Positions 1,978 through 25,903 of a stretch of 37,735 nt of DNA are shown in pieces. The position numbers and the translations under genes are program-made. The notes below the pieces were generated by a model. The model saw nothing but the letters and a program-made list of their open reading frames with translations, did no database searches and was not told the origin of the DNA. The first letter of the stretch is position 1. Each line of letters starts with the position of its first letter. The stretch is from Sedimentibacter sp. (GTDB lineage: Bacteria; Bacillota; Clostridia; Tissierellales; Sedimentibacteraceae): the NCBI GenBank assembly GCA_018436705.1, contig JAHDLA010000005.1:1-37735 (forward strand), written 5' to 3'.

Positions 1978-2919
1978 TTATTGCTTACTTTCTTGAACTG
2001 ACGAAAGTTTTCTAATTAAATCTTTTGATTTTCCGGCTTTGAGGATATATGAATCTGTAGTGTGCTTAAGAATATTAATAAGGTGTTTGGATGTATTGAT
2101 AACCTTGTCTAGATTGATACCGGTTTCTATATTCATTTCGTTAAGCATATGCAGTACATCTTCAGTTGATACGTTTCCTGAAGCGCCAGGGACAAAAGGA
2201 CATCCTCCTACACCTGCAAATGAAGTATCAAACCATGTAATCCCGGCCTGCATTCCGGCAAAAATATTAGCAATTCCCATTCCTCTTGTATTATGAAAAT
2301 GGAGTATCCACTTTACAGCAGGGAAATCAGTTTTCATATCGACACAAAAGTTGTATACCTGGTTCGGAACTGCCATTCCAGATGTATCGGAAAGTGATAT
2401 TTCAGTGATACCTTCGTTTAGGTATGCATTTACAATTTTTTTTACATCTGATATTGGAATTTCATGCTCCCATGGTGAGCCAAATGGCATTGATATTGAT
2501 CCGGATACACTTATATTATTGGATAGTGCAACAGTAACTATTTCCTTAAAGCTTGCAACAGATTCTTCCGGAGTTCTGTTTAGGTTTACAAGATTATGCG
2601 CTTTACTTGCAGAAACGTTGAGTTTTACTTTTTTAGCTCCGCAGCAAACAGCCCTCTCTAGTCCTTTTATGTTAGCTATAAGGGCCCTATACTCAACTCC
2701 GTCAAGCTTTTTGATTTTTTTGAAAACTTCATCTGTAGTTGCCATTTGAGGAACAGCTTTAGGATGCATGAAAGAACCAACTTCAATAACTTTGAAGCCA
2801 GACTCTGATATAGAATTGATTAGGTTTATTTTTTCATCAACATTAAGTGTTTTTATTTCATTTTGCAAGCCGTCTCTAGGGCCGACTTCACAAAGTACTA
2901 CTTTCTTAGGTAAATCCAT
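1978..2919 (-). CDS. HMG-CoA lyase-family enzyme; proposed homocitryl-CoA lyase
   Basis: A 313-residue TIM-barrel retro-Claisen lyase. It keeps every landmark of 3-hydroxy-3-methylglutaryl-CoA lyase: EVGPRDGLQNE (Arg15, Asp16), EVGSFMHPKAVPQMA (47-60), the metal histidines in LHFHNTRG (His207, His209), and GVGGCPFVPGASGN with catalytic-type Cys240 and Asn249. The family splits 3-hydroxy-3-substituted acyl-CoAs into acetyl-CoA plus a keto acid. No leucine-degradation partners are present. Instead the gene follows the LysR gene and has its own promoter and operator matching those of the shikimate-type operon. I therefore infer a substrate such as homocitryl-CoA, giving acetyl-CoA and 2-oxoglutarate. 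HMG-CoA itself, or citramalyl-like CoA esters, remain possible. GGAGGCAAAAT precedes the ATG. Confidence 0.9.
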   Translation of the reverse strand: MDLPKKVVLCEVGPRDGLQNEIKTLNVDEKINLINSISESGFKVIEVGSFMHPKAVPQMATTDEVFKKIKKLDGVEYRALIANIKGLERAVCCGAKKVKLNVSASKAHNLVNLNRTPEESVASFKEIVTVALSNNISVSGSISMPFGSPWEHEIPISDVKKIVNAYLNEGITEISLSDTSGMAVPNQVYNFCVDMKTDFPAVKWILHFHNTRGMGIANIFAGMQAGITWFDTSFAGVGGCPFVPGASGNVSTEDVLHMLNEMNIETGINLDKVINTSKHLINILKHTTDSYILKAGKSKDLIRKLSSVQESKQ

Positions 2920-2969
2920 ATTTTGCCTCCTTATATATTAATAATTAATTTGCTATTTATTTTATTTAT

Positions 2970-2999
2970 ATAATATATATTTTAAATAATAAAGTCCAA
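2970..2999 (-). promoter_or_regulatory. Promoter of the lyase gene
   Basis: On the minus strand: TTGGAC (2999-2994), 18 bases, TATTAT (2975-2970). It is the same -35 hexamer and spacer as the promoter at 4097-4126. The weak -35 suits an activator-dependent promoter. The leader would be about 45 bases. Confidence 0.6.
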
Positions 3000-3019
3000 T
3001 ACAATTATTGTATTGGACT
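2993..3019 (-). terminator. Terminator of the lysR gene
   Basis: AGTCCAATACAA and TTGTATTGGACT form a perfect 12-bp stem with a 3-base loop. On the minus strand it is followed by TTTATTATTT. One arm doubles as the -35 region of the lyase promoter, so ending one transcript and starting the next share these bases. Confidence 0.75.
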
Positions 3020-3036
3020 GATAGAATATTTCTATG
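3020..3036 (-). promoter_or_regulatory. LysR-type operator upstream of the lyase gene
   Basis: Read on the minus strand: CATAGAAATATTCTAT, an ATAG-N7-CTAT dyad containing the T-N11-A core of LysR boxes. Twenty bases separate its CTAT from the ATTGGAC of the lyase promoter, exactly as at 4060-4076. Twelve of its 16 bases are identical to that site. Confidence 0.65.
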
Positions 3037-3056
3037 TATTATTTATAAAAATGATG

Positions 3057-3935
3057 TCAATCTATTGAGTAATTGTTTTTTATGAAGTCATAGACTTCCT
3101 TCAGTGCTGAATCCATTTTCTTTTCCTTGTTTCGGCACATAAATATTGTTCTGGTTAATGCGTCATTACTTATGTTAACTGTTGATATTGTATCAACTTT
3201 TGAAAGTCCTTCTGGTATGATAGAAACACCAAAATTAAGTGAAACAAATGATATTACAGCATTGCATTCTTCCGCTTCAAATACTACATTTGGGTTGATA
3301 TTCATATTTTCAAACAATTCATCACACATTTGCCTAAGTGCACTGTTTTTATTAAGCAAGACAAAAGGCACATCATTCAAATCTTCTATAGAAATACTAT
3401 CTCGTTTTGTGAATGGGTGATTTTTTGGTGCTATTAAAATAAGTTTTTGTTTAAATATGGGAATGCATAATAAATCCTTATCAGTCTTTGCACTGATGAG
3501 CAAATCAATTTTTCCTGTTTTTAAATCTCTGATGAGATAGTCACTTAGATTTTGAACAAAATTAAATTTAATATTTTTTTTAGAAGTATCGTAATAAAAT
3601 TTGTTAATCATCTGAGGTATAAAATTAGAGCTTATGCTGTATATAAATCCGAGATTTATTTTTATGGCATCTGGATTTGCAAGGAGTTCAAGAGATTTTT
3701 TGCCTTCATCCAGCAGATCAAGAGACTTTTCAACATAAGAAAGAAAATGTTTTCCATAATTGCTTAATGATGTTCTTTTACCTTCCTTTTCAAACAAGGG
3801 AACACCAAGCTCTTTTTCAAGATTAGAAATAGAGTAGCTTAAACTGGGTTGAGAAATCAATAATATTTCTGATGCTTTGGTGAAATGCTGAACTTTAGCA
3901 AGGACGCGAAAATATTCTAACTGCTGTAATGTCAT
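3057..3935 (-). CDS. LysR-family transcriptional regulator
   Basis: A 292-residue LTTR. The N-terminal winged helix (about 1-60) contains MTLQQLEYFRVLAKVQHFT and the SQPSLSYSISNLEKELG recognition helix; the rest is the two-lobed effector domain. It is divergent from the aldehyde dehydrogenase operon across 246 bases. A dyad at 4060-4076 overlaps its own likely -35 and sits upstream of the operon's -35, the classic arrangement for autorepression plus activation. A second copy of the dyad lies between the end of this gene and the lyase gene. The inducer is inferred to be shikimate, quinate or a dehydro derivative. The start is the conserved MTLQQLEYF. Confidence 0.93.
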   Translation of the reverse strand: MTLQQLEYFRVLAKVQHFTKASEILLISQPSLSYSISNLEKELGVPLFEKEGKRTSLSNYGKHFLSYVEKSLDLLDEGKKSLELLANPDAIKINLGFIYSISSNFIPQMINKFYYDTSKKNIKFNFVQNLSDYLIRDLKTGKIDLLISAKTDKDLLCIPIFKQKLILIAPKNHPFTKRDSISIEDLNDVPFVLLNKNSALRQMCDELFENMNINPNVVFEAEECNAVISFVSLNFGVSIIPEGLSKVDTISTVNISNDALTRTIFMCRNKEKKMDSALKEVYDFIKNNYSID

Positions 3936-4043
3936 GAATGCCCTCCAAAGTAAATTTTATATTATTTTATAAGTGAAAACTGCTGATTAGTTCACTTAAC
4001 GCTGATACAATAGATACATTTGAGGTTTATTACCTGCTTATTC

Positions 4044-4072
4044 ATTATATCATATTAGTCATAGAATGTCTC
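4044..4072 (-). promoter_or_regulatory. Probable lysR promoter
   Basis: On the minus strand: GAGACA (4072-4067), 17 bases, TATAAT (4049-4044). The -35 lies inside the operator dyad, which predicts repression by bound LysR protein. Confidence 0.5.
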
Positions 4073-4076
4073 TATG
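4060..4076 (+). promoter_or_regulatory. LysR-type operator of the shikimate-type operon
   Basis: CATAGAATGTCTCTATG is an ATAG-N7-CTAT dyad with a T-N11-A core. It is centred 29 bases before the first base of the operon's -35 hexamer. Confidence 0.7.
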
Positions 4077-4096
4077 ATTTTAATTTAATATAAGTA

Positions 4097-4126
4097 TTGG
4101 ACAAATATAATTCAAATAAATATAAT
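4097..4126 (+). promoter_or_regulatory. Promoter of the aldehyde dehydrogenase operon
   Basis: TTGGAC (4097-4102), 18 bases, TATAAT (4121-4126). The poor -35 and perfect -10 suit an activated promoter. The leader would be about 50 bases, with AAAGGAG before the start. Confidence 0.65.
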
Positions 4127-4181
4127 TTAATTATGATAACTACTAAATATAATACGCAGTATTTATAAAGGAGATATGATA

Positions 4182-5594
4182 ATGGCTAAGGAAATTACGC
4201 AGGAGCAAATTAATGAGCTTGATGACTTATTTGCAAAAGCAAAAAAGGCAGCTAAGATAATTGCTGAGTATGATCAGGAGAGGGTTGATCGATTATGTCA
4301 GGCAGTTGCTTGGTCTGTTGCTAACAAAAAAACTTTTTTAAAGCTTGTTGATATGGGAATTAAGGAAAGTAGATTGGGTGATCCCATATCTAGACAGGGA
4401 AAACGATTTAAAATCAGAGGCGTTCTTAGAGATGCACTTAGGGCAAAAAGTGTAGGAATAATAGAAGAAATGCCTGAAAAAGGAATTATGAAAATTGCAA
4501 AGCCAGTAGGAATTATAGGTTCGCTCATACCAACTACAAATCCTGATTTAACCCCTGCAGGACAAGCAATTTATGGAATAAAAGCTAGGGATGTGATTAT
4601 ATTTTCACCGCATCCAAGATCAAAGGAAACCACTTTTGAAACAGTTAGAATTATGAGAGAAGCACTTGAAAAAGAAGGTGCTCCTGCAGATATACTTCAG
4701 TGTGTAACGAATCCAAGCGTTGCAATGACGCAGGAACTTATGTCGAGATCTGATTTGGTTATAGCAACTGGAGGCAGACCTATGGTTAAGGCTGCTTACA
4801 GTTCAGGAACACCTGCATATGGTTCTGGCGCAGGAAATGCAACAATGATTTTTGATGAAACAACTAATGTTGATGAAGCCGCACATAACACTATGCTGAG
4901 TAAAACTTCGGATTACGGTTCGGGATGTTCTGCAGATGGAAATCTTGTAATTCATGAATGCGTTTATGATTCTATGATTGAACAGCTCCAAAATGAAGGA
5001 GGTTATCTGGCAAACGAAAAAGAAAGGGAAATGCTTCGTAAAGTTATGTGGGATAATGAATTTCATAGACTTGCAGATACAGTGGCAATTGCTCCTCAGA
5101 AGCTTGCCAAGGCAGCAGGTTTTACAATTCCGACAGACAAAAAATTTATAATGGTAATTGGAGACGGAATAGGTTCTAAACATTATTTTTGTAGAGAGAA
5201 GTTGACAACATTACTTGCAGTGTTTAAGTATGAAGGTGAATTTGAAAATGCGCTCAATGCTATGAGGGGAATCTATGAGATTGGTGGCAAGGGTCATTCC
5301 TGCGGTATTTATTCATTCAATGACGACCATATATTGAGACTTGGTCTTGCTGCACCTGTCAGCAGAATAATGGTAAGGCAGCCACAGTCAAAAGCAAATG
5401 CCGGTGCATTTAATAATGGGATGCCTATGACTTCATCAATGGGATGCGGCACATGGGGAGGCAACATAGTATCAGAAAATATTGCATTGAGACACTATAT
5501 GAATACAACATGGGTGTCGAGACCTATTTCAGAAGATAGACCTTCTGATGAGGAACTGTTCGGAAAATTTTATGATCCTAAAATGGAAATGTAA
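4182..5594 (+). CDS. CoA-acylating aldehyde dehydrogenase
   Basis: A 470-residue aldehyde dehydrogenase of the acylating branch (EutE/PduP/sulfoacetaldehyde dehydrogenase type), not the hydrolytic branch. It has PVGIIGSLIPTTNP (108-121) in the nucleotide region, GTPAYGSGAGNA (209-220) and the catalytic cysteine in TSDYGSGCSADGN (Cys249). The family converts aldehyde + CoA + NAD(P)+ to acyl-CoA. First gene of the LysR-controlled operon. The ATG at 4182 lies eight bases after AAAGGAG; the ATG at 4176 is too close. I infer that it oxidises the semialdehyde released by the ThDP enzyme (homocitrate semialdehyde) to homocitryl-CoA, parallel to IolA in inositol breakdown. Sulfoacetaldehyde or acetaldehyde are alternatives, but no sulfonate genes are nearby. 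Confidence 0.9.
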   Translation: MAKEITQEQINELDDLFAKAKKAAKIIAEYDQERVDRLCQAVAWSVANKKTFLKLVDMGIKESRLGDPISRQGKRFKIRGVLRDALRAKSVGIIEEMPEKGIMKIAKPVGIIGSLIPTTNPDLTPAGQAIYGIKARDVIIFSPHPRSKETTFETVRIMREALEKEGAPADILQCVTNPSVAMTQELMSRSDLVIATGGRPMVKAAYSSGTPAYGSGAGNATMIFDETTNVDEAAHNTMLSKTSDYGSGCSADGNLVIHECVYDSMIEQLQNEGGYLANEKEREMLRKVMWDNEFHRLADTVAIAPQKLAKAAGFTIPTDKKFIMVIGDGIGSKHYFCREKLTTLLAVFKYEGEFENALNAMRGIYEIGGKGHSCGIYSFNDDHILRLGLAAPVSRIMVRQPQSKANAGAFNNGMPMTSSMGCGTWGGNIVSENIALRHYMNTTWVSRPISEDRPSDEELFGKFYDPKMEM

Positions 5595-5697
5595 TTAGTT
5601 ATTATCAATTTGTGCTAAGAAGCAAAGATCATAAATCTTAGTACGAATTATGAATAATATAATTAGGTTTATAAAACTTTTATCAAGGAGGAGAAAT

Positions 5698-6528
5698 ATG
5701 AGAAGAAAATTTTCACTTGCTCACTTGACTGTCTTAGGATGTGCACCGCCTGAAATGGCTTATATAGCTTCCATGGCAGGATACGACTATATAGGTATAC
5801 GCTCAATATATATGGGATTAAAAAACGAACCAAATTATAATTTAGCAAATAATAAGAAGATGCTTAAACAAACAAAAGAAGCTTTAAGGATTACTGGGAT
5901 AAAGGTTAATGATATAGAGCTTGCAAAAATAGCTGATGATATTGATGTATCACAATATGAGCCAGCATTTGAGGTCTCTGCGGAACTTGGCGCTAAGCAT
6001 GTATTGAGTAGTATATGGACATCAAATAAAGAGTTTTACATTAATCAATTTGCAAAACTTGCAGATCTAGCTAAAAAGTATGGGCTCAAAGTAGATTTGG
6101 AGTTTGTTACTTGGGCAAACGTTAACGACTTACAGACTGCATTAGAAGTTTTGAAAACAGTTAACAGAGATAATACAGGAATAATGATTGATACTTTACA
6201 CTTTAATCGCTCTCGTGTTAAGCTCGAAGAGCTTGATGATATTCCTAAGGAATGGTTCCATTTTGTTCATATATGTGATGGCCCTGCGGAAATACCAAAA
6301 GATAAAGAAGGATTAATATACACAGGGAGAGACGCAAGATTTTATGTTGGAGAAGGTGAAATAAATATAGCTGCAATACTTGAAAGGTGTCCAGAGCTGG
6401 TCTATGCTATTGAGCTTCCTAACATTGAAAGGGTTAAAGAATTAGGGTATGCGGAACATGCCAGACGTTGCTTGCAAACTGCAAAAAATTATTTGGAAAT
6501 TCACTCTTTGGCAGGCTGTATAGTGTAA
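5698..6528 (+). CDS. Xylose-isomerase-like TIM barrel; proposed IolE-type 3-dehydroquinate dehydratase
   Basis: A 276-residue protein of the sugar-phosphate isomerase/epimerase (AP-endonuclease 2-like) family, which includes inosose dehydratase IolE and 3-dehydroshikimate dehydratases. Candidate metal ligands are Glu135 (KVDLEF), Asp165 and His168 (MIDTLHFN), His191 (HFVHICDG) and Glu239 (YAIELPN). The start at 5698 follows AGGAGG; an upstream in-frame ATG at 5650 has no ribosome site. It lies 18 bases before the ThDP enzyme gene, the IolE-IolD pairing. By analogy it would remove the C5 hydroxyl of 3-dehydroquinate to give a cyclic 3,4-dione. The rival reading is dehydration of 3-dehydroshikimate to protocatechuate, but no gene for aromatic degradation follows. 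Fold is firm; reaction inferred. Confidence 0.85.
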   Translation: MRRKFSLAHLTVLGCAPPEMAYIASMAGYDYIGIRSIYMGLKNEPNYNLANNKKMLKQTKEALRITGIKVNDIELAKIADDIDVSQYEPAFEVSAELGAKHVLSSIWTSNKEFYINQFAKLADLAKKYGLKVDLEFVTWANVNDLQTALEVLKTVNRDNTGIMIDTLHFNRSRVKLEELDDIPKEWFHFVHICDGPAEIPKDKEGLIYTGRDARFYVGEGEINIAAILERCPELVYAIELPNIERVKELGYAEHARRCLQTAKNYLEIHSLAGCIV

Positions 6529-6546
6529 ATTTCAGGAGGTAAGACA

Positions 6547-8349
6547 TTGAAAAAATTATTATCGTATCAAATAGTAAATTATCTTGAAAGAAGAGATGTA
6601 AAATATATATTTGGACTTTGTGGTCATACAATCATAGCAATGTTGGATGCATTAAAACAAAGTGAAAAAATAAAATTCATATCAGTTAGGCATGAGCAGA
6701 TAGCTGCAACAGCAGCTGATGGGTACGCAAGAGTGACAAAAAAAGCAGCTGTTGTAATGACTCATTTAGGGCCAGGACTTACTAATGCTGTTACAGGAGT
6801 TGCTAATGCTGCGTTGGATTCTATACCTCTCGTTGTCATTGCAGGTGATGTCCCCAGTTATTATTACGGAAAGCACCCGCACCAGGAAATTAACATGCAC
6901 TGTGATGGATCACAGTATGATATATATAAACCTTTTGTTAAAAGGGCATGGAGATTAGATACTCCTGAACTTATGCCAGAAATACTTGACAAGGCATTTC
7001 GGCTTGCTGAATCGGGAAGACCCGGACCTGTACTTATATCTGTACCAATGGATATGTTTTCGAGAGAAATTGATGAAATATGTTTTCAAAGAACATATAA
7101 GGATTCAAAGTATACTGTCAAGCCATCACTTGCGAAAGAAGCTGCAGAAGAAATAGCAAGGATGCTGATAGAAGCAAAAAATCCTCTTATTCATATAGGT
7201 GGTCAGGCTGTGTATTATGATTCTTCCAAAGAATTGGTGGAACTGGCTGATTTTCTTGATATACCTGTAACAAGGACTTTGATGGGTCAGGGAGGCATAT
7301 CTGACACGCATCCTTTGCTTATAGGAATGACAGGCTTTTGGGGAACGGATTTTGTTAATGGAAAATCATCAGGAGCAGATGTTATTTTAGCAGTGGGAAC
7401 GAGGCTTACGGAAGCAGACAGCAGTTCATGGTATGATGGCATAACATTTAGCAGTAAATCTAAATTTATACAAATAGATATGGATGAGGCTGAAATAGGA
7501 AGAAACTATCCTGTGGAAATAGGTGCAGTTGCAGATCCTAAGCAGGCATTTAAAGCTATATTTGAAGCAGCAAAAAAACTCAAACCGGAAGGGAAAGATA
7601 GGCCAGAAATTAGGGAAGAAATCAAAAAATATAAATCTGATTTCAAAAAATCTAATTTGGAAATATCACTTGACGGAAGATATCCGATGACACCACAGAG
7701 AATACTAAAGGATGTAAGAGAGGTGTTTCCGGATGACGGTCTTATATTTACAGATGTGGGCTGGAATAAAAACGGAGTAGGGCAGCAGTTTGATATAACA
7801 AAGCCTAATACAATTTTCCACCCCGGGGGGATGGCAACTATGGGATTCGGGTCTGCCGCTATACTTGGAGCAAAGCTTGCATCACCCGATAAAAAGGTAA
7901 TGACGCTTATCGGGGACGGAGGGTTTGGAACGAACCCTTCCGTGTTGGCAACTGCGGTAGAGCAAAACATACCTGTCGTATGGATAGTAATGAATAACTT
8001 TGCGTTTGGCACGATTGCAGGATTAGAAGGAAGCGCATTCAATCATTCGTTTGGAACCACATTCTGTACTCCAGACGGCTCAAAATATAATCCTGAATGG
8101 GCAGAAGTTGCAAAAGCTTATGGAGTAAAAGCGAAAAAGATTATGTCAGCTGATGAATTTAAGGAAGGACTCAGAGAAGCTCTTGAATCCAACGAGCCTT
8201 ATCTACTTGATGTTCCGATGGAAAATATTCCTGTGCCTACAGATGGACTATGGAATATCAATGACATATATAAACCGAAAGAAAATGTTATTGATGGAAG
8301 ACTTATGTCAGGAGAAGCTATAAAATCTTATCATAAATCTTTGATTTAG
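6547..8349 (+). CDS. ThDP-dependent enzyme; proposed 1,2-dione ring-opening hydrolase
   Basis: A 600-residue enzyme of the acetolactate-synthase-like ThDP superfamily. The three domains are an N-terminal Pyr domain with activating Glu50 (VRHEQ) and THLGPGLTNAV (72-82), a central domain (about 195-345) with HIGGQAVYY, and a C-terminal PP domain with GDGGFG (456-461) and N483-N484, the expected GDG-to-NN spacing. TTG start at 6547 behind AGGAGG. It is not a clear acetolactate synthase: there is no regulatory subunit gene and no branched-chain pathway nearby. IolD and cyclohexane-1,2-dione hydrolase of this superfamily hydrolyse the bond between two ring carbonyls; the context suggests the same reaction here, opening 1-hydroxy-3,4-dioxocyclohexane-1-carboxylate. 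Superfamily firm; reaction inferred. Confidence 0.88.
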   Translation: MKKLLSYQIVNYLERRDVKYIFGLCGHTIIAMLDALKQSEKIKFISVRHEQIAATAADGYARVTKKAAVVMTHLGPGLTNAVTGVANAALDSIPLVVIAGDVPSYYYGKHPHQEINMHCDGSQYDIYKPFVKRAWRLDTPELMPEILDKAFRLAESGRPGPVLISVPMDMFSREIDEICFQRTYKDSKYTVKPSLAKEAAEEIARMLIEAKNPLIHIGGQAVYYDSSKELVELADFLDIPVTRTLMGQGGISDTHPLLIGMTGFWGTDFVNGKSSGADVILAVGTRLTEADSSSWYDGITFSSKSKFIQIDMDEAEIGRNYPVEIGAVADPKQAFKAIFEAAKKLKPEGKDRPEIREEIKKYKSDFKKSNLEISLDGRYPMTPQRILKDVREVFPDDGLIFTDVGWNKNGVGQQFDITKPNTIFHPGGMATMGFGSAAILGAKLASPDKKVMTLIGDGGFGTNPSVLATAVEQNIPVVWIVMNNFAFGTIAGLEGSAFNHSFGTTFCTPDGSKYNPEWAEVAKAYGVKAKKIMSADEFKEGLREALESNEPYLLDVPMENIPVPTDGLWNINDIYKPKENVIDGRLMSGEAIKSYHKSLI

Positions 8350-8395
8350 TTAGAATAGAATGTAATTAATAAAATTAATTGAAGGAGTTGATTAA

Positions 8396-9256
8396 ATGTC
8401 CAATAGAATACAAGGAACAAGCACATTGGTAGGATTACTTGGATATCCGCTAAAACATAGTAAATCACCTCATATGCATAATACAGCTTTTGAGGAGCTT
8501 GGATTGGATTACGTTTATATGGCTTTTGAAATTCATGACGGTTATATAAAGGAAGGGCTTGATGCTATGAGAATCCTAAACGCAGAAGGATGCAATGTTA
8601 CTATGCCTCACAAAAAAAGTGTTTTGAAATACTTGGATGATATTTCTGAAGATGCAAAAATAATAGGTTCTGTAAATACAGTAAAAAATGATGGTGTAAA
8701 GCTTACAGGATATAATACTGACGGAAGAGGATTTGTCAAAGCTCTGGAAGAAAATGATGTAGAATATAAAGGAAAAAAAATAGTGCTGGCAGGAGCAGGA
8801 GGTGCTGCGAGGGCAGTTGCAACACAGCTTGCATATGAAGGAGCTGCTGAGATTGTTATATTCAATAGGACGTTAAGCTCAGCAGAAGAAATAATAGAAA
8901 ACATTAATATCAATATTCCAGAATGCAAAGGCAGAGCAATTAAGTTAAGCGAGGAAGTCCTTAGAGAAGAGATTCAAGATGCAACAATATTGGTAAACTG
9001 CACATCGCTTGGCATGAAGCCTACAATAGATAAAGCAATAGTATCTTCACCAGATGCATTTCCTAAAAACCTATTTGTTGCTGATATAGTTTATGATCCA
9101 GATAAAACAAAATTTCTTAAAATGGCAGAAGAGGCAGGCTGTAGATATATGAACGGACTAATGATGATGATATGGCAGGGAGCTATTGCATTTAAAATCT
9201 GGACAGGAAAAAATATGCCAATTGAACTGGTGAAAAAAGAAATACTTGGACATTAA
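8396..9256 (+). CDS. aroE: Shikimate (or quinate) dehydrogenase, AroE family
   Basis: A 286-residue shikimate dehydrogenase homologue. The substrate lobe has SKSPHMHN (22-29; Ser22 and Ser24 would hold the carboxylate), NVTMPHK with catalytic Lys73, and NTDGRGF with Asp109. The Rossmann lobe has GAGGAARA (133-140) and NRT (157-159), the motif that usually marks NADP preference. A late Gln in MMMIWQGAIAF completes the site. GGAG precedes the ATG. It sits inside a LysR-controlled operon with a TRAP transporter and without aroA, aroB, aroC or aroK, so I infer a catabolic role: oxidising imported shikimate to 3-dehydroshikimate and perhaps quinate to 3-dehydroquinate. A purely biosynthetic role is possible but fits the neighbours less well. 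Confidence 0.92.
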   Translation: MSNRIQGTSTLVGLLGYPLKHSKSPHMHNTAFEELGLDYVYMAFEIHDGYIKEGLDAMRILNAEGCNVTMPHKKSVLKYLDDISEDAKIIGSVNTVKNDGVKLTGYNTDGRGFVKALEENDVEYKGKKIVLAGAGGAARAVATQLAYEGAAEIVIFNRTLSSAEEIIENININIPECKGRAIKLSEEVLREEIQDATILVNCTSLGMKPTIDKAIVSSPDAFPKNLFVADIVYDPDKTKFLKMAEEAGCRYMNGLMMMIWQGAIAFKIWTGKNMPIELVKKEILGH

Positions 9257-9270
9257 TTAGTATTACTGAT

Positions 9271-9303
9271 GCTGCCATGGCCTTTTAAACAGGCTATGTC
9301 AGC
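9271..9303 (+). other. Intercistronic hairpin between aroE and dctQ
   Basis: GCTGCCATGGCC and GGCTATGTCAGC pair over 12 positions with one mismatch and one G-U, around a 9-base AT loop. There is no T run, so it is more likely an RNA-stability or processing element than a terminator. Confidence 0.55.
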
Positions 9304-9334
9304 TGCTCCGGTTAATAAAGTAGGGAGGTGTAAC

Positions 9335-9811
9335 ATGTCTTTTATTAAATGGATTGATGATCATATTGAGGAAGTTGCTCTTGTAGTATTGCTCATATTT
9401 ATGACTATTGTAATGAGTATTCAGGTAATAGCTAGGTATGTATTTAGTTATTCATTAACATGGTCTGAGGAAATAACACGTTATATGTTTATATGGTCTG
9501 GATTTCTTAGTATAAGTTTTTGCTATAAAAAAGGTATAGTAATAAAGATTGAGCAGGTATTAAGTCTATTGCCAAATCCAGTTAGAAAGATCATAAGTAT
9601 ATTTGAAAAATTGGTAGCGCTTGTTTTTTTTATATATATGGTTCCATTTGGATATAAATTTCTGCTTGCTTCCATTGATAGCGGACAGTTAAGCCCGGCA
9701 ATGAGATTACCTATGCATCTTATTCAATCTGCTCCTATTGTAGGTTTTATATTAACTGCAGCAAGAGTTGCAGAAGGGCTTATTAAAGAATTAACAGTTA
9801 AAACAGATTAA
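9335..9811 (+). CDS. dctQ: TRAP transporter small membrane subunit
   Basis: A 158-residue DctQ-family protein with four hydrophobic segments (about 16-36, 47-66, 88-108 and 125-145 by eye) and the SLTWSEEITRYMFIWSGFLS region typical of the family, a good match for its usual size. An open frame extends upstream to 9269, but GGGAGGTG lies just before the ATG at 9335, which I take as the start. It pairs with the large DctM subunit 21 bases downstream and with the binding protein to form a Na+- or H+-driven importer of organic acids. Because it sits in the shikimate-type operon, the cargo is inferred to be shikimate or quinate. Confidence 0.93.
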   Translation: MSFIKWIDDHIEEVALVVLLIFMTIVMSIQVIARYVFSYSLTWSEEITRYMFIWSGFLSISFCYKKGIVIKIEQVLSLLPNPVRKIISIFEKLVALVFFIYMVPFGYKFLLASIDSGQLSPAMRLPMHLIQSAPIVGFILTAARVAEGLIKELTVKTD

Positions 9812-9832
9812 GTTTACTAGAAAGGAGAAATT

Positions 9833-11125
9833 ATGTCAGCTGGAATTTTATTTGGATTATTCTTTGTATTTTTGGCTTTGGCAATTCCTATATCCACTAC
9901 TTTAGGTATAGTATCAATAGTACCTTCTCTCTTTAACAGCTCATTTCCGGCAAATGCACAGTATATAATAAGAGCGATGTTTGCAGGTATGGATAGCTTT
10001 CCTCTGTTAGCAGTTCCAATGTTTATATTGTCTGGTATTCTTATGGCAAGAGGAGGAGTATCAAAGAAGCTGTTTAATGTATTCTCATTTTTTATAGGGG
10101 ATAAGACAGCCGGAATGCCATGTGCGGTTGTAATAACATGTCTTTTCTATGGAGCTATTTCGGGATCTGCTCCGGCAACTGTTGCAGCAGTTGGAAGCAT
10201 GACAATACCAATACTTATTAATATGGGATATGACAAAGTTTTTACTACGGCACTGGTTGCAGTTTCCGGAGGACTCGGAGTAATAATACCACCGAGCATT
10301 CCATTTATAATTTATGGAATGAGCACAGGAACATCTGTTGGAGAACTGTTTGTTGCAGGAATTGTTCCAGGACTTTTGATAGGCTCCCTTTTAATGGGTT
10401 ATGCGTATTATTATTGCAGGAAAAATGGCGAGGATAAGGAAAAAATAAATGCAAGTGTGAAGGTATTAAGGGACAAAGGATTCATAGAGGTAATAAAAGA
10501 TAGTTCATGGGCTTTGCTTACACCTGTAATTATACTAGGAAGTATTTACAGCGGTATTGCATCTCCTACTGAGGCTGCAGTATTTTCTGTAATATACGCT
10601 CTTATAATAAGCTTGTTTGTATATAAATCTTTAGAGTTGAAAGATTTATGGAAGATATTTATAGAAGCTGTAAGAACATATGCACCGTTATTGTTTATAA
10701 TCTCGGCAGCAATTGCATTTTCAAGAGTATTAACATTGCTTCAGGTTCCTCAGACAGTTGCGGAAACTATAATGTCTACATTTTCTGGTAAAGTGGCAAT
10801 ACTTCTTATAATAAATGTGTTCCTGCTGTTTGTGGGAATGGTTATGGATACAACGCCAGCTATATTGATACTGTCACCTATTTTTATGCCTATTATTAAG
10901 GCCATTGATATGAATCCTATACATTTTGGCGTTGTCATGGTTGTGAATCTTGCAATTGGTTTTGTCACACCTCCTGTTGGCGTAAACTTGTTTGTTGCAG
11001 GGTCGCTTACAGGCGTATCTGTACTTGACATTGCAAAAGAAGCAATACCGCTTATTATTATATTTTTAGTAGCATTATTATTTATAACATTTATTCCAGA
11101 AATAAGTCTTTTGATTGTTTCTTAA
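9833..11125 (+). CDS. dctM: TRAP transporter large permease subunit
   Basis: A 430-residue DctM-family permease with many membrane helices along its length. Typical stretches are PLLAVPMFILSGILMARGG, FYGAISGSAPATVAAVGSMTI, LGVIIPPSIPFIIYG and a late FVTPPVGVNLFV. It forms the translocation path that couples ion flow to uptake of the acid delivered by DctP. AAAGGAG precedes the ATG. Gene order is Q-M-P, with the binding protein last behind a hairpin at 11167-11189. Confidence 0.95.
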   Translation: MSAGILFGLFFVFLALAIPISTTLGIVSIVPSLFNSSFPANAQYIIRAMFAGMDSFPLLAVPMFILSGILMARGGVSKKLFNVFSFFIGDKTAGMPCAVVITCLFYGAISGSAPATVAAVGSMTIPILINMGYDKVFTTALVAVSGGLGVIIPPSIPFIIYGMSTGTSVGELFVAGIVPGLLIGSLLMGYAYYYCRKNGEDKEKINASVKVLRDKGFIEVIKDSSWALLTPVIILGSIYSGIASPTEAAVFSVIYALIISLFVYKSLELKDLWKIFIEAVRTYAPLLFIISAAIAFSRVLTLLQVPQTVAETIMSTFSGKVAILLIINVFLLFVGMVMDTTPAILILSPIFMPIIKAIDMNPIHFGVVMVVNLAIGFVTPPVGVNLFVAGSLTGVSVLDIAKEAIPLIIIFLVALLFITFIPEISLLIVS

Positions 11126-11166
11126 AATTAATGAAGATTAATGAAATAAATAATAGAGATATAAAT

Positions 11167-11189
11167 TTCTGATTATTTAAAAATCAGAA
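11167..11189 (+). other. Hairpin between dctM and dctP
   Basis: TTCTGATT and AATCAGAA form an 8-bp stem around ATTTAAA, with no T run after it. Such hairpins often protect the 5' end of a binding-protein message and allow higher expression of dctP; that role is inferred. Confidence 0.55.
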
Positions 11190-11222
11190 TTATATAAAAT
11201 AATTGAAAGGTGGATGTATAAA

Positions 11223-12272
11223 GTGAAAGATATGAAAAAATTTTTAAGTATTCTTATGATACTAGCTATGATTTTTACAATGACGGCATGCAGTCAACAG
11301 ACTACAGAAGATAACCCTGTTGAACCAGAAAATGAAACACCTACACCATCCTCAGATATAGGAGAATATTCTTGGTCACTAGGAACTGACAGCCCTGAGG
11401 ATACTGTAACGCAGAAATATGCCGAAAAATTTGCAGAAGAAGTTGGAGCGCTCAGTGGTGGAAAAATGAAAATTCAGGTTTATTCAAACGGAACTCTGGG
11501 CGGAGACAGAGAAATGCTTGAAAGCATTAAAGGCGGCAACATACAGTTTGTAGTCCAGACAACTGCACCTCAGGTTAATTTCATGCCTAAGCTTGCTGTA
11601 TTTGATGTACCAAATGCATATGCTACAATAGAAGAAGTTAGAAAAGCAGTTGATAATGAAAGTTTTATGAAAACTATAAATAATGTTTATAAAGATGCCG
11701 GGTATCATCTTATGGCATATGCGGATCAAGGATTTAGAGTAATGTCAACAAATAAGAAGATAGAGACTATCGATGATTTTAAAGGACAAAAGATCAGAAC
11801 AATGGAAAATGCAAACCATATAGCTTATTGGAAAGCACTTGGAGCGAACCCAACACCTATGGCATTTGCAGAAGTTTACATAGGATTGCAGCAGGGAACG
11901 ATAGATGCACAGGAAAACCCATATGAAGTTATTGTTTCTTCTAAATTCTATGAACAGCAGAAATATGTAATAAAAACAAACCATATACCGCACCTTCTTT
12001 CACTAATAACAAGCAGCGACTTATATAGTGGACTTAGTGATGCTGAAAAAGCTATATTGGACGAAGCTGCATTAAATGCGAAATCATATGCACGTGAACA
12101 AGCAGATTCTCGTGTTTCTGACAGAGTAAGTATAATAGAATCGAACGGCGCTGAAATAATTGAAATCAATGCTGATGTATTTACTGCAATGCAAGAGGCT
12201 GTACAATCTGTATACGAAAGTATAAAGGAGCAGGTAGGAGAAGAACTGTTGAATGCATATCTTGGGCACTAA
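11223..12272 (+). CDS. dctP: TRAP substrate-binding lipoprotein
   Basis: A DctP-family extracellular binding protein of about 349 residues. It opens with a hydrophobic signal (MKKFLSILMILAMIFTMTAC), ending in a lipobox-like MTAC, and a Ser/Thr/Pro/Glu-rich linker; the mature part contains the family's GTLGGDREMLESIKGG and QQGTIDAQENP. The arginine in FKGQKIRTMENA is the conserved residue that usually grips the ligand carboxylate. Start choice: the ATG at 11214 abuts the ribosome site GGTGG, so the in-frame GTG at 11223 (spacing nine) is likelier. The cargo is inferred to be a hydroaromatic carboxylate from the operon. Two hairpins follow. Confidence 0.93.
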   Translation: MKDMKKFLSILMILAMIFTMTACSQQTTEDNPVEPENETPTPSSDIGEYSWSLGTDSPEDTVTQKYAEKFAEEVGALSGGKMKIQVYSNGTLGGDREMLESIKGGNIQFVVQTTAPQVNFMPKLAVFDVPNAYATIEEVRKAVDNESFMKTINNVYKDAGYHLMAYADQGFRVMSTNKKIETIDDFKGQKIRTMENANHIAYWKALGANPTPMAFAEVYIGLQQGTIDAQENPYEVIVSSKFYEQQKYVIKTNHIPHLLSLITSSDLYSGLSDAEKAILDEAALNAKSYAREQADSRVSDRVSIIESNGAEIIEINADVFTAMQEAVQSVYESIKEQVGEELLNAYLGH

Positions 12273-12323
12273 TGCCAATAGTATAAAGCATTAATCATGT
12301 AAAAACTAATAAATTGTTTGAAT

Positions 12324-12362
12324 GAAACATAAAGCAGATATAAATATTTTGCTTTATGTTTC
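12324..12362 (+). terminator. First hairpin after dctP
   Basis: GAAACATAAAGCA and TGCTTTATGTTTC form a perfect 13-bp stem. No T run follows, so it may be an mRNA 3'-end stabiliser rather than the terminator itself. Confidence 0.5.
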
Positions 12363-12386
12363 ACATGTTTAAAAGAACTTATTGGT

Positions 12387-12425
12387 AAACAAGTGTCGCA
12401 GTTGCAATAGGCGACACTTGTTTAT
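12387..12425 (+). terminator. Second hairpin after dctP, probable operon terminator
   Basis: AAACAAGTGTCGC and GCGACACTTGTTT form a 13-bp stem with an 11-base loop, followed by TTATAC. The U tract is short but the stem is strong. With the hairpin at 12324 it occupies much of the 320-base gap before aroD. Confidence 0.65.
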
Positions 12426-12455
12426 ACAAAAATTTAGTAATTGGTAAATTAAGAA

Positions 12456-12484
12456 TTGTTTCTATAGGTAAACAGAATTATAAT
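12456..12484 (+). promoter_or_regulatory. Probable aroD promoter
   Basis: TTGTTT, 17 bases, TATAAT, just downstream of the tandem hairpins. It implies that aroD has its own transcript with a leader of about 100 bases. No copy of the CATAGAA operator is visible here. Confidence 0.55.
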
Positions 12485-12592
12485 AGATAGAAAAGAATAT
12501 TTATATCATATCTTTGGTGAAAATTTCATTAGGATGTCATGAAAGTGACAAATAGAGATAACTAGACTTCATTGTAAAAGGAGATGGACTTA

Positions 12593-13366
12593 TTGAAAAA
12601 CATTGAAATTAGAGGCATTAAAATAGGTGAAGGAATGCCTAAAATAATAATACCATTGGTTGAAAGTACAGAAGCGGAAATAATTCAAAAGGTAAAGAGA
12701 TTTAAAGGCTTAAAGTATGATGCTGTTGAATGGAGAGCTGATTTTTTTGACGATGTTTTGAGTTTTGAAAAAGTAACAGAAGTGTTAAAAAAAGTTAGAA
12801 ATTTGATACCAGATAAAATTGTACTTTTTACATATAGGACGAAAAAAGAAGGCGGTAACAAAGAAATATCTTATGAGGATTACTGCGCACTAAATAAAGC
12901 AGTGGCTGAAACAGGTGATGCAGATATTATAGATGTGGAAATTTTTTTGGGAGATAAAGGGGCAGAAAGAATTATAAATAATATTCATTCCTGCAATGTA
13001 CTTGTGGTTGCTTCAAACCATGATTTTCACAAGACACCAGATAAGAAAGATATAATTTCACGAATGTGCAAAATGCAGGATGCTGGTGCTGATATATTAA
13101 AAATTGCTGTAATGCCTCAAAATATAGAGGATTTGTTAATATTGATGTCTGCTACATACGAAATGAAAGAAAAATATACAAATCGACCCATAATAACTAT
13201 GTCAATGGGAACCATGGGAATGATGAGCAGACTGGCTGGAGAAATTTTTGGTTCTGCATTTACATTTGGAGCTGTAGGTGAAACATCAGCTCCGGGGCAG
13301 ATACCCGCTGATCAGCTTCATACGGTTCTTAGCATTATACATCAAAATATAAAAAGCAAAGGCTAA
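12593..13366 (+). CDS. aroD: 3-dehydroquinate dehydratase, type I
   Basis: Type I (Schiff-base) dehydroquinase interconverting 3-dehydroquinate and 3-dehydroshikimate. With the TTG start at 12593 (nine bases after AGGAG) the protein has 257 residues and its active-site residues fall on the numbers used for the Salmonella enzyme: Glu46, Arg48, Arg82, His143, Lys170, Arg213, Ser232 and Gln236. The ATG at 12584 overlaps the ribosome site and is unlikely. It follows the aroE-TRAP operon but has its own promoter. In a catabolic reading it would hydrate 3-dehydroshikimate to 3-dehydroquinate, since the reaction is reversible; it could also serve chorismate synthesis, and a separate promoter would allow both. 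Confidence 0.95.
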   Translation: MKNIEIRGIKIGEGMPKIIIPLVESTEAEIIQKVKRFKGLKYDAVEWRADFFDDVLSFEKVTEVLKKVRNLIPDKIVLFTYRTKKEGGNKEISYEDYCALNKAVAETGDADIIDVEIFLGDKGAERIINNIHSCNVLVVASNHDFHKTPDKKDIISRMCKMQDAGADILKIAVMPQNIEDLLILMSATYEMKEKYTNRPIITMSMGTMGMMSRLAGEIFGSAFTFGAVGETSAPGQIPADQLHTVLSIIHQNIKSKG

Positions 13367-18568: not shown

Positions 18569-19321
18569 TCATAATATTATATTTTCAATCATTTCAGATA
18601 ATCTTTCAATTACTAAGTCGGTAATTTCTTTTCCCAGCTCTATATTTGATTTAGTTGCATCTCCAAGTGCTCCGTTTTCTGTAATTTCATGGAAATCCCA
18701 GAATGCACCTCCATCCCTTACTATCTCTTTAATTCTGTACTTGGTATTTTTTCTTAATTTACCTTTTTCGAGCGCATCTTCTTTAACTAACCAAGGAGCT
18801 AAATACATGCTTTGGGATGTTTCAGCTTCACATGCATGGCCTCTGATAGCAGAACATTTATTTTTGTCCAATAAATCCTTAACCAGGCCAGAACCTGTGC
18901 CCGCCCAGAATGCATCTATATTATATTCCATTTTTATTTTTGTTATAGCTGTTCCCAATGCAAATCTATTTCCACCATGGCCTGTTAGAAAAAATATTTT
19001 TTTGATGCCATGTTGCTTTAAACTCCATGCAATATCCATCAGAATAGATACATATGTATCTATTCTTAGTGTTATGGTTCCGACAAATTTCATATGATGA
19101 GGTGATATACCATATCCAACAGGAGGACAGATTAATAAGTCATCACCGTACTTAGACCCTAATAATTTTGCGATTTCATAAGCCCTGACTGTATCTGTAG
19201 CAAAGGTTGTATTAGGCCCGTGTTGCTCATATGAACCTGTTGGTACAATTGCAATCTTAATATTATCAATATGTTTTTCCAATTCTGAAGTTGTAATTTC
19301 CTCAAGTATTAATGCTTTCAT
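18569..19321 (-). CDS. Creatininase-family amidohydrolase
   Basis: A 250-residue metal-dependent hydrolase. The metal-site motifs are in order: GSYEQHGP, TDTVRA, GYGISPHHMKFVGTITL, GHGGN and HACEAETSQSMYLAP. The family cleaves amide bonds, as in creatininase, formamide deformylases and the MftE peptidase, so the family does not fix the substrate. It is the last gene of the ABC transporter operon, 30 bases after dppF, so I infer that it hydrolyses a small amide or cyclic amide taken up by that transporter. AGAAAGGAC precedes the ATG. The neighbouring amidase-type genes (PuuD-like and C45-like) point to an amide-degrading regulon. Confidence 0.9.
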   Translation of the reverse strand: MKALILEEITTSELEKHIDNIKIAIVPTGSYEQHGPNTTFATDTVRAYEIAKLLGSKYGDDLLICPPVGYGISPHHMKFVGTITLRIDTYVSILMDIAWSLKQHGIKKIFFLTGHGGNRFALGTAITKIKMEYNIDAFWAGTGSGLVKDLLDKNKCSAIRGHACEAETSQSMYLAPWLVKEDALEKGKLRKNTKYRIKEIVRDGGAFWDFHEITENGALGDATKSNIELGKEITDLVIERLSEMIENIIL

Positions 19322-19351
19322 TTTTAAAGTCCTTTCTAATAAGATTATAAA

Positions 19352-20356
19352 TTATCTACTATACAAATGACATAATACATAATGTCCCTTTTCAATTTCA
19401 ATTTCCTGCGGTTGTTTTTCTTTACATATATCCATACACTTTACACATCTTGGGTGAAACCGACATCCACTAGGAATATTAACAGGATTTGGTGCTTCAC
19501 CTTTAATTTTAGTTAAATTTATTTTATAATCGGGGTCAGGATTTGGTACTGCTTCCAATAGTGCATCTGTGTAGGGATGATATCTTTTTTCGATCAGTTT
19601 TTCTGTCGGCGCTTTTTCAACAATTTTGCCTAAGTACATTACTGCTGTATAGTCAGTTAAATATCTTATCAGTGATATATCATGAGAGATGCAAATTGAA
19701 GCTAAATTTCTTTCTTTAATCATTTTAGTCAATAAATTCATTATGCCTGCCCTTATGGATACATCAAGCATAGAAACAGGTTCGTCTGCAATCAAAAGTG
19801 AGGGATTAAGTATTAGTGCCCTGGCTATTGATACTCTTTGTCTTTGACCACCACTCATTTCATGAGGATATCTTTCTAAATAAGTTTTTGGCGGTTTTAA
19901 TCCTACCTCATATAAAACTGTTTCTGCTAAATCATATCTTTCTTTATAGTTGCTGCCTATTTTATGTATTCTTAGAGGTTCCATCAATATTTCTTTAATC
20001 TTAAACCTTGGATTTAAAGATTCATATGGATCTTGAAATATCATCTGTGCTTTTCTTCTAAAATCTTTTAGCTTTTTTCCCTTAAATTCTGATATATTTT
20101 CACCTTTAAATTTTACTTTTCCCTCGTTTGGTTTGTATAAGCCCAAAAGTAATTTAGCAGCTGTAGTTTTTCCGCATCCTGATTCTCCCACTAATCCTAA
20201 AGTCTCCCCCGGCTTTATTTTTACTCCTATGCCATCAATGGCTCTTAATATTTTTTCTTCAGAAATAATAATATTATCTTTTTTTACTTTTACTAGGAAT
20301 TCTTTTTTTATATTAATAGCCTCTATTATATATTGGTTTTCATGCGAAATATTCAT
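19352..20356 (-). CDS. Dipeptide/oligopeptide ABC transporter ATP-binding protein, DppF/OppF type
   Basis: A 334-residue ABC ATPase with Walker A GESGCGKTT, signature MSGGQRQR, Walker B LLIADEP and a switch histidine in SHDISL. The C-terminal extension with CRFHPRCVKCMDIC is the oligopeptide-transporter domain; such cysteines can hold an iron-sulfur cluster in some relatives. Its start overlaps the end of the DppD-type gene by four bases, implying translational coupling and equal amounts of the two ATPases. Confidence 0.95.
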   Translation of the reverse strand: MNISHENQYIIEAINIKKEFLVKVKKDNIIISEEKILRAIDGIGVKIKPGETLGLVGESGCGKTTAAKLLLGLYKPNEGKVKFKGENISEFKGKKLKDFRRKAQMIFQDPYESLNPRFKIKEILMEPLRIHKIGSNYKERYDLAETVLYEVGLKPPKTYLERYPHEMSGGQRQRVSIARALILNPSLLIADEPVSMLDVSIRAGIMNLLTKMIKERNLASICISHDISLIRYLTDYTAVMYLGKIVEKAPTEKLIEKRYHPYTDALLEAVPNPDPDYKINLTKIKGEAPNPVNIPSGCRFHPRCVKCMDICKEKQPQEIEIEKGHYVLCHLYSR

Positions 20357-21378: not shown

Positions 21379-21417
21379 ATCTCACAAACCCTTTCGAAGT
21401 TATAATCTTATTAAAAT

Positions 21418-22278: not shown

Positions 22279-22291
22279 GAATAATTCCTCC

Positions 22292-23269: not shown

Positions 23270-23307
23270 TTCAACAACTCCAATATGTATTTTTTCGATT
23301 TAGGAGA

Positions 23308-23326
23308 GAGCTGGAATAACCAGCTC
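23308..23326 (-). other. Intercistronic hairpin after the binding-protein gene
   Basis: GAGCTGG and CCAGCTC with a 5-base loop, no T run. It lies just after the stop of the binding-protein gene in the direction of transcription, where hairpins commonly protect the upstream message and thin read-through to the permease genes. Confidence 0.55.
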
Positions 23327-23330
23327 CTAA

Positions 23331-25779: not shown

Positions 25780-25816
25780 ATTTCCTCCTCTCGTATTATA
25801 ACTTTACTATAATATT

Positions 25817-25834
25817 GTGCAAATTCTATGCCAA
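25817..25834 (-). promoter_or_regulatory. Sigma-54 promoter of the amidase-ABC operon
   Basis: On the minus strand: TTGGCAT-AGAAT-TTGCAC. The GG at -24 and GC at -12 are separated by exactly ten bases, as sigma-54 requires. It lies just upstream of the PuuD-like gene and is paired with a sigma-54 activator gene immediately beyond. Confidence 0.85.
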
Positions 25835-25903
25835 CTAAAATTGATATTTGCTAATGATTTTTAAAGGTATAACAGAAAGAAGAAACTTATAATTATAAAA
25901 TAA

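Follow-up and report, generated by a model that had tools for sequence, protein, structure and literature searches.

The locus described here raises the question of how quinate and shikimate, which are abundant plant acids, might be fermented without any aromatic intermediate. It consists of ten genes (positions 1978-13366), all intact and adjacent to one another, on contig JAHDLA010000005.1 of Sedimentibacter sp. (GenBank assembly GCA_018436705.1); the window, by which we mean the whole stretch of 37,735 nucleotides analyzed, is the entire contig (C15) of this 3.77-Mb assembly. To our knowledge, the only route of quinate and shikimate degradation known at the level of genes runs through protocatechuate, and we know of no genes assigned to the hydroaromatic fermenters, known since at least 2002. 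The cluster combines a tripartite ATP-independent periplasmic (TRAP) importer, AroE, type I AroD, a xylose-isomerase-like TIM barrel, a thiamine diphosphate (ThDP)-dependent enzyme, an acylating-type aldehyde dehydrogenase, a lyase of the 3-hydroxy-3-methylglutaryl-CoA (HMG-CoA) lyase family (HMGL), and a LysR regulator. Profile searches (Pfam, NCBIfam) recovered every member of this set just where the first-pass annotation had placed it. Our comparative analysis makes it likely that the cluster encodes a complete non-aromatic pathway by which quinate and shikimate end up as acetyl-CoA and 2-oxoglutarate; we infer its individual reactions.

Proposed pathway and its chemistry

In the proposed pathway, the TRAP system would import quinate and shikimate, AroE would oxidize quinate to 3-dehydroquinate and shikimate to 3-dehydroshikimate, and AroD would interconvert the two products. 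The TIM barrel, proposed here as a 3-dehydroquinate dehydratase, would take the C4 proton and the C5 hydroxyl off dehydroquinate by the chemistry of IolE and dehydroshikimate dehydratase, forming the cyclic 1,2-dione 1-hydroxy-3,4-dioxocyclohexane-1-carboxylate. The ThDP enzyme, a putative ring-opening hydrolase of this 1,2-dione, would hydrolyze the C3-C4 bond to homocitrate semialdehyde, as IolD and cyclohexane-1,2-dione hydrolase do with their substrates. The aldehyde dehydrogenase is the candidate for converting the semialdehyde to homocitryl-CoA, and the HMGL-family enzyme, a proposed homocitryl-CoA lyase, would release acetyl-CoA and 2-oxoglutarate by retro-Claisen cleavage.

The balance of carbon, oxygen, and redox from quinate with two NAD(P)H, as claimed in the first-pass annotation, was confirmed by formula calculation (dehydroquinate, -2H; dione, -H2O; homocitrate semialdehyde, +H2O; homocitryl-CoA, -2H). 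Overall, quinate + H2O gives acetate + 2-oxoglutarate + 4 H, the redox yield corresponding to two NAD(P)H, and shikimate needs 2 H2O. In the IolD reaction, the acid arises from the carbonyl beside the new CH2. We expect ring opening to follow the same regiochemistry, since only this direction, with the aldehyde on the C2 arm, would give a beta-hydroxyacyl-CoA open to retro-Claisen cleavage. A geometric check based on the relative configuration of quinate gave C1 of dehydroquinate the R configuration. Since OH, COOH, C2 arm, and C6 arm rank in this order in the product too, the pathway would lead to (R)-homocitryl-CoA. Homocitrate synthase, a member of the DRE-TIM family, forms homocitryl-CoA from acetyl-CoA and 2-oxoglutarate and makes the (R) enantiomer; the route is thus likely the homocitrate-forming reaction run backwards.

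Grouping of the pathway genes across genomes

The analysis of 61 genomes, comprising the Sedimentibacter genome and 60 relatives, reveals a grouping of the pathway genes that exceeds chance. The TIM barrel (threshold, E 1e-20) was found in 11 of the 61 genomes. Orthologues of the ThDP enzyme, which are 67-100% identical and stand apart from the next best paralogue at no more than 36%, were present in 10 of these 11 genomes vs 1 of the 50 others. The aldehyde dehydrogenase orthologue (about 60% identity or more; next, 51%) followed the same pattern (10/11 vs 2/50), as did the HMGL orthologue at 62% identity or more (9/11 vs 3/50); in TIM-barrel genomes the HMGL orthologues were 62-79% identical, and other homologues reached at most 43%, save one at 53% and one at 67%. 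These observations were further strengthened by Fisher tests of the TIM barrel with the ThDP enzyme (P-value ~1e-9), the aldehyde dehydrogenase (P-value ~8e-9), and the HMGL (P-value ~6e-7), in which genomes were treated as independent and relatedness was ignored. The first-pass annotation had made its reading depend on co-occurrence in other genomes, and this co-occurrence is present, in several phyla. The exceptions in G001, G002, and G013 are explained by contigs that break off within the cluster or shortly beyond it: the TIM-barrel contig of G001 is only 4.9 kb long, HMGL and aldehyde dehydrogenase genes lie on such contigs in G002 and G013, and the lone ThDP match outside the TIM-barrel genomes is a piece at a contig end in G013.

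To extend the comparison, TIM-barrel relatives were collected with two exact peptide patterns in a scan of one genome per species of GTDB r220, and the best 80 of 303 confirmed loci were kept and, together with the window, make up the 81 loci counted below. The resulting distribution is a lower bound biased to closer relatives; many records are metagenome-assembled genomes (MAGs), many loci are short, and gene calls are rough in high-GC loci. By record title, the holders include clostridia, Negativicutes, Bacilli, beta-, alpha-, and gammaproteobacteria, Acidobacteria, Synergistales, a spirochaete, and a Phycisphaerales MAG. Cultured holders among them are Sedimentibacter acidaminivorans (L019), Propionivibrio soli (L060), Geobacillus thermocatenulatus (L062), and Pelosinus fermentans JBW45 (L068). 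Gene families were scored with profiles built from first-round matches, and the ThDP enzyme was found in 58 of the 81 loci, AroE in 39, a Zn-alcohol dehydrogenase in 17, type I AroD in 37, type II dehydroquinase in 11, an acylating aldehyde dehydrogenase in 38, a non-acylating one in 14, HMGL in 37, and an enzyme of the citryl-CoA-lyase family in 10. At least 9 kb of flanking sequence on both sides was available for 39 loci, with the ThDP enzyme in 30 and absent from nine. Among these 30 well-flanked ThDP loci, either aldehyde dehydrogenase occurred in 25, either lyase in 26, AroE or the Zn-alcohol dehydrogenase in 28, and either dehydroquinase in 21.

Loci lacking a full ThDP gene number 23, of which 19 were traced to a whole genome, leaving out L055, L058, L063, and L086. 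A full-length ThDP orthologue (51-78% identity) lies elsewhere in the genome in 13 of these 19; in L074 there is just a fragment at a contig end (56% identity), apparently the same piece that lies beside its TIM barrel. Conversely, five distant ThDP loci (L112-L116) were read, and each holds further pathway genes: two are HMGL-aldehyde dehydrogenase-ThDP-AroE-TRAP operons without a TIM barrel, one joins the ThDP enzyme with a non-acylating aldehyde dehydrogenase, HMGL, and CoA-transferase, one has the order Zn-alcohol dehydrogenase-ThDP-aldehyde dehydrogenase-TRAP-AroD, and one is a cluster also listed as L031. The related entry L111 is the truncated G002 contig.

Exchange of enzymes around a conserved chemistry

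Around the TIM-barrel loci, the chemistry is kept while the enzymes are exchanged. The two lyases are mutually exclusive, as no locus among the 81 carries both HMGL and the citryl-CoA-lyase-family enzyme; zero overlap has a chance of 0.0013 if loci are taken as independent. All three members of the latter family that were scanned, from its 10 loci, exceeded the cut-off of 261 for NF004864 (425, 452.4, and 347.5), one member exceeded that of PF00285, and the nearest solved structure is citryl-CoA lyase (6hxp). A citryl-CoA-type lyase in the HMGL slot is what would be expected of a homocitryl-CoA intermediate. The use of two unrelated folds points the same way, since both release acetyl-CoA from beta-hydroxyacyl-CoA esters and one takes its name from citryl-CoA.

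A parallel exchange affects the dehydrogenase. In 13 loci, an ordinary aldehyde dehydrogenase stands in place of the acylating one, and in 10 of these it is accompanied by a CaiB-type CoA-transferase, which occurs in 10 of the 81 loci, always with the non-acylating dehydrogenase (10/10) and never with the acylating one. Oxidation by an ordinary aldehyde dehydrogenase would yield free homocitrate, so that a CoA-transferase would be required; the one member scanned belongs to CoA-transferase family III, its best model being succinate-glutarate CoA-transferase, below cut-off. All four combinations of dehydrogenase and lyase exist among the 81 loci: acylating dehydrogenase with HMGL (26 loci including the window), acylating dehydrogenase with citryl-type lyase (L048, L064, and L083, together with L084, which has both dehydrogenase types), plain dehydrogenase and transferase with HMGL (L049, L052, L072, L081, and L094), and plain dehydrogenase and transferase with citryl-type lyase (L053, L069, L070, L077, and L078). 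The dehydroquinase is likewise exchanged, occurring as type I alone in 34 loci, as type II alone in eight, and as both in three, which indicates dehydroquinate and dehydroshikimate as intermediates. Taken together, the swaps of lyase, of dehydrogenase plus CoA-transferase, and of type II for type I dehydroquinase fit the intermediates of the first-pass annotation while lying outside the argument on which it was built.

Five loci of the same genus (L095-L098 and L101), excluded from the 81-locus counts, form a second operon type that keeps the HMGL-aldehyde dehydrogenase-ThDP set at 61-69% identity. Its TIM barrel shares only 46-48% identity, its AroE homologue is weaker, and some of the stretches also contain TRAP and LysR genes; no AroD was found in those read. 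This type may be a variant for quinate alone, or for another substrate, that leads to the same dione. It also gives some footing to an explanation in which the window cluster follows the same enzyme logic on another cyclic polyol acid, such as a quinate epimer or derivative, with AroE and AroD homologues of changed specificity. We regard this as improbable, since the window AroE and AroD score above the cut-offs for shikimate dehydrogenase and dehydroquinase, and since the conservation of a dehydroquinase across its two types argues that the dehydroquinate/dehydroshikimate step itself is conserved.

The TIM barrel and the protocatechuate alternative

The TIM barrel, called a sugar phosphate isomerase/epimerase in source names, was examined by structural modeling and alignment. 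An AlphaFold2 model (mean predicted local distance difference test, pLDDT, 91.6) has lmo2234, IolI, and QuiC as its nearest folds. The start of the protein is likely internal to the called frame, as 19 of 22 other aligned relatives begin within two residues of position ~5698 and the remaining three are longer. The published description of QuiC and QsuB gives ten active-site residues: Arg64, Leu97, Glu134, Leu136, Asp165, His168, Gln191, Ser206, Arg210, and Glu239 (PMC7442255). Across an alignment of 82 barrels (81 distinct), QuiC Glu134, Asp165, His168, and Arg210 correspond to family residues E135, D165, H168, and R214, kept in 82, 82, 80, and 82 sequences, respectively. The metal ligand Gln191 is instead His in 81 of 82, and the residue paired with Ser206 is Gly or Ala in 23 relatives. 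As to the remaining positions, Leu136 is matched by Val in 79 of 82, and the aligned QuiC piece covers neither Arg64 nor Glu239, so the Glu that is invariant at family residue 239 matches QuiC Glu239 by number only.

The fold and the four shared residues are also what one would see if the TIM barrel were a dehydroshikimate dehydratase of the QuiC/AsbF/QsuB kind making protocatechuate, with the ThDP enzyme, dehydrogenase, and lyase as mere neighbours acting on another substrate. That explanation is unlikely, given that the three supposed neighbours follow the TIM barrel both in presence and absence and in position, that no protocatechuate ring-cleavage, decarboxylase, or CoA-ligase genes were recognized in the window cluster by Pfam or NCBIfam, and that the Gln191 ligand is replaced; moreover, protocatechuate would leave the ThDP enzyme and lyase no chemistry to do.

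Separately, a relative of the TIM barrel at ~65% identity (P0094) carries an N-terminal extension resembling a twin-arginine (Tat) signal (SRRSFLR), which suggests that this may be an exported version of the enzyme.

The ThDP enzyme

Judged by sequence, the ThDP enzyme is no ordinary acetolactate synthase, the assignment that would have refuted the first-pass annotation. It scored 402.3 against a cut-off of 538.35 for the acetolactate synthase model TIGR00118 and lay below the cut-off of every model among the best 25 of the 55 that matched. The first-pass label of an IolD-superfamily enzyme holds only loosely, since the curated IolD model TIGR04377 gave 241.4 bits against a cut-off of 715. An alignment of 61 orthologues (60 distinct, including five truncated ones from the second operon type) places Ala in all 61 at the position of the FDDR-motif Arg, a residue with a role in acetolactate synthase. 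The G, D, and N of the cofactor motif GDG...N are kept in 61 of 61, and the catalytic Glu is kept in 56, the other five being truncated or gapped. An assignment as acetolactate synthase or IolD was set aside on the model cut-offs and the replaced FDDR arginine.

The aldehyde dehydrogenase and the HMGL-family lyase

Beyond its best model, the acylating sulfoacetaldehyde dehydrogenase SauS, the aldehyde dehydrogenase matched AdhE (360) and EutH_ACDH (337), each of the three below its own cut-off; by these matches, it is of the acylating type and not SauS. The catalytic Cys of its motif DYGSGCSADGN is kept in all 35 pathway members examined. For the lyase, residues were counted in 39 of 45 HMGL neighbours (38 distinct, since L019 and L099 are the same place), six scoring at most 240 being excluded. 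Arg41, Asp42, His233, His235, Cys266, and Asn275 have catalytic roles in HMG-CoA lyase, and here Arg41 and Asp42 are present in 38 of 39 (one gapped) and the other four in all 39. In contrast, Trp81, Tyr167, and Asp236, common to the human, B. subtilis, and P. aeruginosa HMG-CoA lyases, are replaced in the pathway members, with Trp81 becoming Ala or Ser in 39 of 39, Tyr167 likewise Ala or Ser in 39 of 39, and Asp236 Asn in 38 of 39. This pattern is consistent with retained HMGL chemistry on a different substrate, proposed here as homocitryl-CoA.

A second, more distant HMGL-family lyase lies at G000:C31:9491-10372 (L110:4477-5376), adjoining a family III CoA-transferase and a sodium:sulfate/citrate-type transporter. 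The arrangement resembles a unit for taking up and cleaving a hydroxy-acid, for example hydroxymethylglutarate or citramalate.

AroE, AroD, and the biosynthetic background

The biosynthetic genes of the same genome were located in an aro operon on contig C12 (G000:C12:248000-267900, L109) that encodes 3-deoxy-D-arabino-heptulosonate 7-phosphate (DAHP) synthase, prephenate dehydrogenase, AroB, AroA, AroC, AroE, and shikimate kinase. Because this operon has its own AroE, the AroE of the cluster is an extra copy, presumably catabolic, and a merely biosynthetic role for the window AroD and AroE was set aside. The C12 operon has no dehydroquinase; the cluster AroD is the only one found in the assembly, being the sole type I copy, with no type II enzyme found there. 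It may therefore serve both biosynthesis and catabolism, or a second dehydroquinase may be absent from the assembly.

In four Bacilli loci (L049, L052, L072, and L081), a shikimate kinase (scanned in L072) and a membrane-protein-like family, C11, without a Pfam match are both divergent from the pathway genes, which suggests that shikimate taken up by these bacteria is also channelled into the synthesis of aromatic amino acids.

Observations weighing against the pathway

Several observations weigh against the proposed pathway. The counts across genomes take related genomes as independent; G011 has the TIM barrel and the ThDP enzyme but yields no match to HMGL at E 1e-40, and in G058 an HMGL orthologue occurs with neither of the other two. 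Among the 30 well-flanked ThDP loci, four have no lyase nearby, five no aldehyde dehydrogenase, and nine no dehydroquinase, and the second operon type lacks AroD in the stretches read. No ThDP orthologue was found in five of the 19 traced genomes (the Acidobacteria L033, L050, and L051, together with L043 and L045); the barrel family may have other jobs in ThDP-less genomes, or these genomes may be incomplete. Four of the 14 loci with a non-acylating dehydrogenase (L061, L062, L073, and L084) have no CoA-transferase in reach, L084 also carries both dehydrogenase types, and the six lower-scoring HMGL neighbours resemble classical HMG-CoA lyases at some positions. Finally, the solved structures nearest to the TIM barrel include QuiC, a true dehydroshikimate dehydratase, and the active site would also suit dehydroshikimate.

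The four loci without a lyase could further mean that the ring is opened as proposed and its product handled otherwise, either with another regiochemistry or with the HMGL acting on a different beta-hydroxyacyl-CoA. We consider this very improbable, because the aldehyde would have to lie on the C2 arm for any retro-Claisen step to follow and because a citryl-CoA-lyase-family enzyme substitutes for HMGL without overlap. On balance, the non-aromatic pathway is supported, having withstood the comparative tests of co-occurrence and ThDP identity, with replacements that fit its intermediates.

Relation to known systems

In myo-inositol catabolism, a ketone with alpha- and beta-hydroxyls is dehydrated to a 1,2-dione by the metal-dependent TIM barrel IolE, the ThDP enzyme IolD opens the ring hydrolytically, and a CoA-acylating dehydrogenase, IolA, acts later. 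The cluster would share the dehydration to a dione, the ThDP ring opening, and the CoA-acylating dehydrogenase, but it has AroE and AroD in place of IolG and a retro-Claisen end in place of an aldolase. Inositol catabolism itself was rejected as the function of the locus, as IolE is not among the three NCBIfam models matching the TIM barrel and no protein of the window genome exceeds the IolD cut-off (TIGR04377). With the protocatechuate route (QuiA/QuiB/QuiC, QsuB, and fungal qa/qut), the cluster has in common a dehydrogenase, a dehydroquinase, and a QuiC-like TIM barrel; unlike that route, it would branch at dehydroquinate, never become aromatic, and add a ThDP enzyme, CoA-acylation, and a lyase.

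Cyclohexane-1,2-dione hydrolase (PDB 2pgn), a ThDP enzyme whose hydrolytic product from a cyclic 1,2-dione is a semialdehyde acid, is among the PDB matches of the window ThDP enzyme (167 bits), but BbmA and acetolactate synthases score higher, and its substrate has no hydroxyl or carboxyl groups. The lyase passes the HMG-CoA lyase model with the catalytic residues kept, yet differs at the three positions described above, and the citryl-CoA lyase relative (family assignment from the three members scanned) would act on a substrate, homocitryl-CoA, with one more methylene than citryl-CoA.

Ilyobacter insuetus and Propionivibrio limicola were reportedly described by Brune and co-workers in 2002 as specialists degrading hydroaromatic compounds. 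Neither was among the best 80 of 303 loci or 120 of 3392 proteins, which are mostly nameless. Propionivibrio soli (L060), however, has the ThDP enzyme, TIM barrel, TRAP, AroE, aldehyde dehydrogenase, and HMGL genes in one stretch, and its TIM barrel has a 75% relative in P. dicarboxylicus. Many holders belong, by record title, to what are presumably genera of amino-acid fermenters, into whose metabolism 2-oxoglutarate would feed naturally.

Gene content of the cluster and of the remaining window

The features of the cluster are collected in Table 1. The LysR protein, whose gene is divergent from the catabolic genes, is probably an inducer-responsive regulator, and the likely ligand of DctP is quinate or shikimate.

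Table 1. Genes of the Sedimentibacter cluster, with coordinates in the window and supporting models.
Feature	Coordinates	Strand	Models and remarks
HMGL-family (DRE-TIM) lyase	1978..2919	-	PF00682, 172 bits; NCBIfam NF004283 (HMG-CoA lyase), 331.6 vs cut-off 246
LysR-family regulator	3057..3935	-	Pfam PF03466/PF00126
Acylating-type aldehyde dehydrogenase	4176..5594	+	Best NCBIfam model SauS, 443.8 vs cut-off 600
Xylose-isomerase-like TIM barrel	5650..6528	+	PF01261; likely start ~5698
ThDP-dependent enzyme	6547..8349	+	Three TPP domains (Pfam)
AroE-family shikimate/quinate dehydrogenase	8396..9256	+	TIGR00507, 259.2 vs cut-off 200.2
TRAP small permease DctQ	9269..9811	+	PF04290
TRAP large permease DctM	9833..11125	+	PF06808
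TRAP solute-binding protein DctP	11214..12272	+	PF03480
Type I 3-dehydroquinate dehydratase AroD	12584..13366	+	TIGR01093, 234.2 vs cut-off 139.3

As to transport elsewhere, L021, L024, L029, L035, L038, L048, and L071 have a tripartite tricarboxylate transporter (TctC/TctA) among the pathway genes, the family assignment being checked on members from L066 and L094; several of the seven loci showed no TRAP genes. A scan of one neighbour against a defence-gene library gave no match. Outside the cluster, positions 18569-27989 of the window group a creatininase-family protein, an oligopeptide ABC transporter, a solute-binding protein, a peptidase C26, and a sigma-54 activator, which looks like a regulated uptake operon for a peptide or gamma-glutamyl compound; positions 28214-29896 hold a 560-aa open frame with zero Pfam matches.

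Implications for quinate and shikimate fermentation

Neither the route nor its gene set was found described in the open-licence literature searched, bioRxiv preprints being outside the search. A related prediction concerns a rumen bacterium, in which quinate would be used only as a source of chorismate (PMC10054779). The components are known enzyme families arranged along the logic of inositol catabolism, and the pathway as a whole appears undescribed in that literature. We consider it likely that this is an undescribed route, spread over several phyla and over fermenters as well as aerobes, with a new class of ThDP hydrolase, (R)-homocitryl-CoA as an intermediate, two interchangeable activation modules, and two unrelated lyases that likewise replace each other.

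If true, the pathway would provide the first gene-level answer to how quinate and shikimate are fermented without aromatic intermediates, and it would supply markers for detecting the trait in sediments, in guts, and in soils. The route would contribute to metabolism a new ThDP ring-opening enzyme and a homocitryl-CoA lyase in two unrelated folds, with homocitrate semialdehyde and 1-hydroxy-3,4-dioxocyclohexane-1-carboxylate as new metabolites. It would also correct annotations such as acetolactate synthase-like, sulfoacetaldehyde dehydrogenase-like, HMG-CoA lyase, citryl-CoA lyase, and sugar phosphate isomerase/epimerase among the members of these families.

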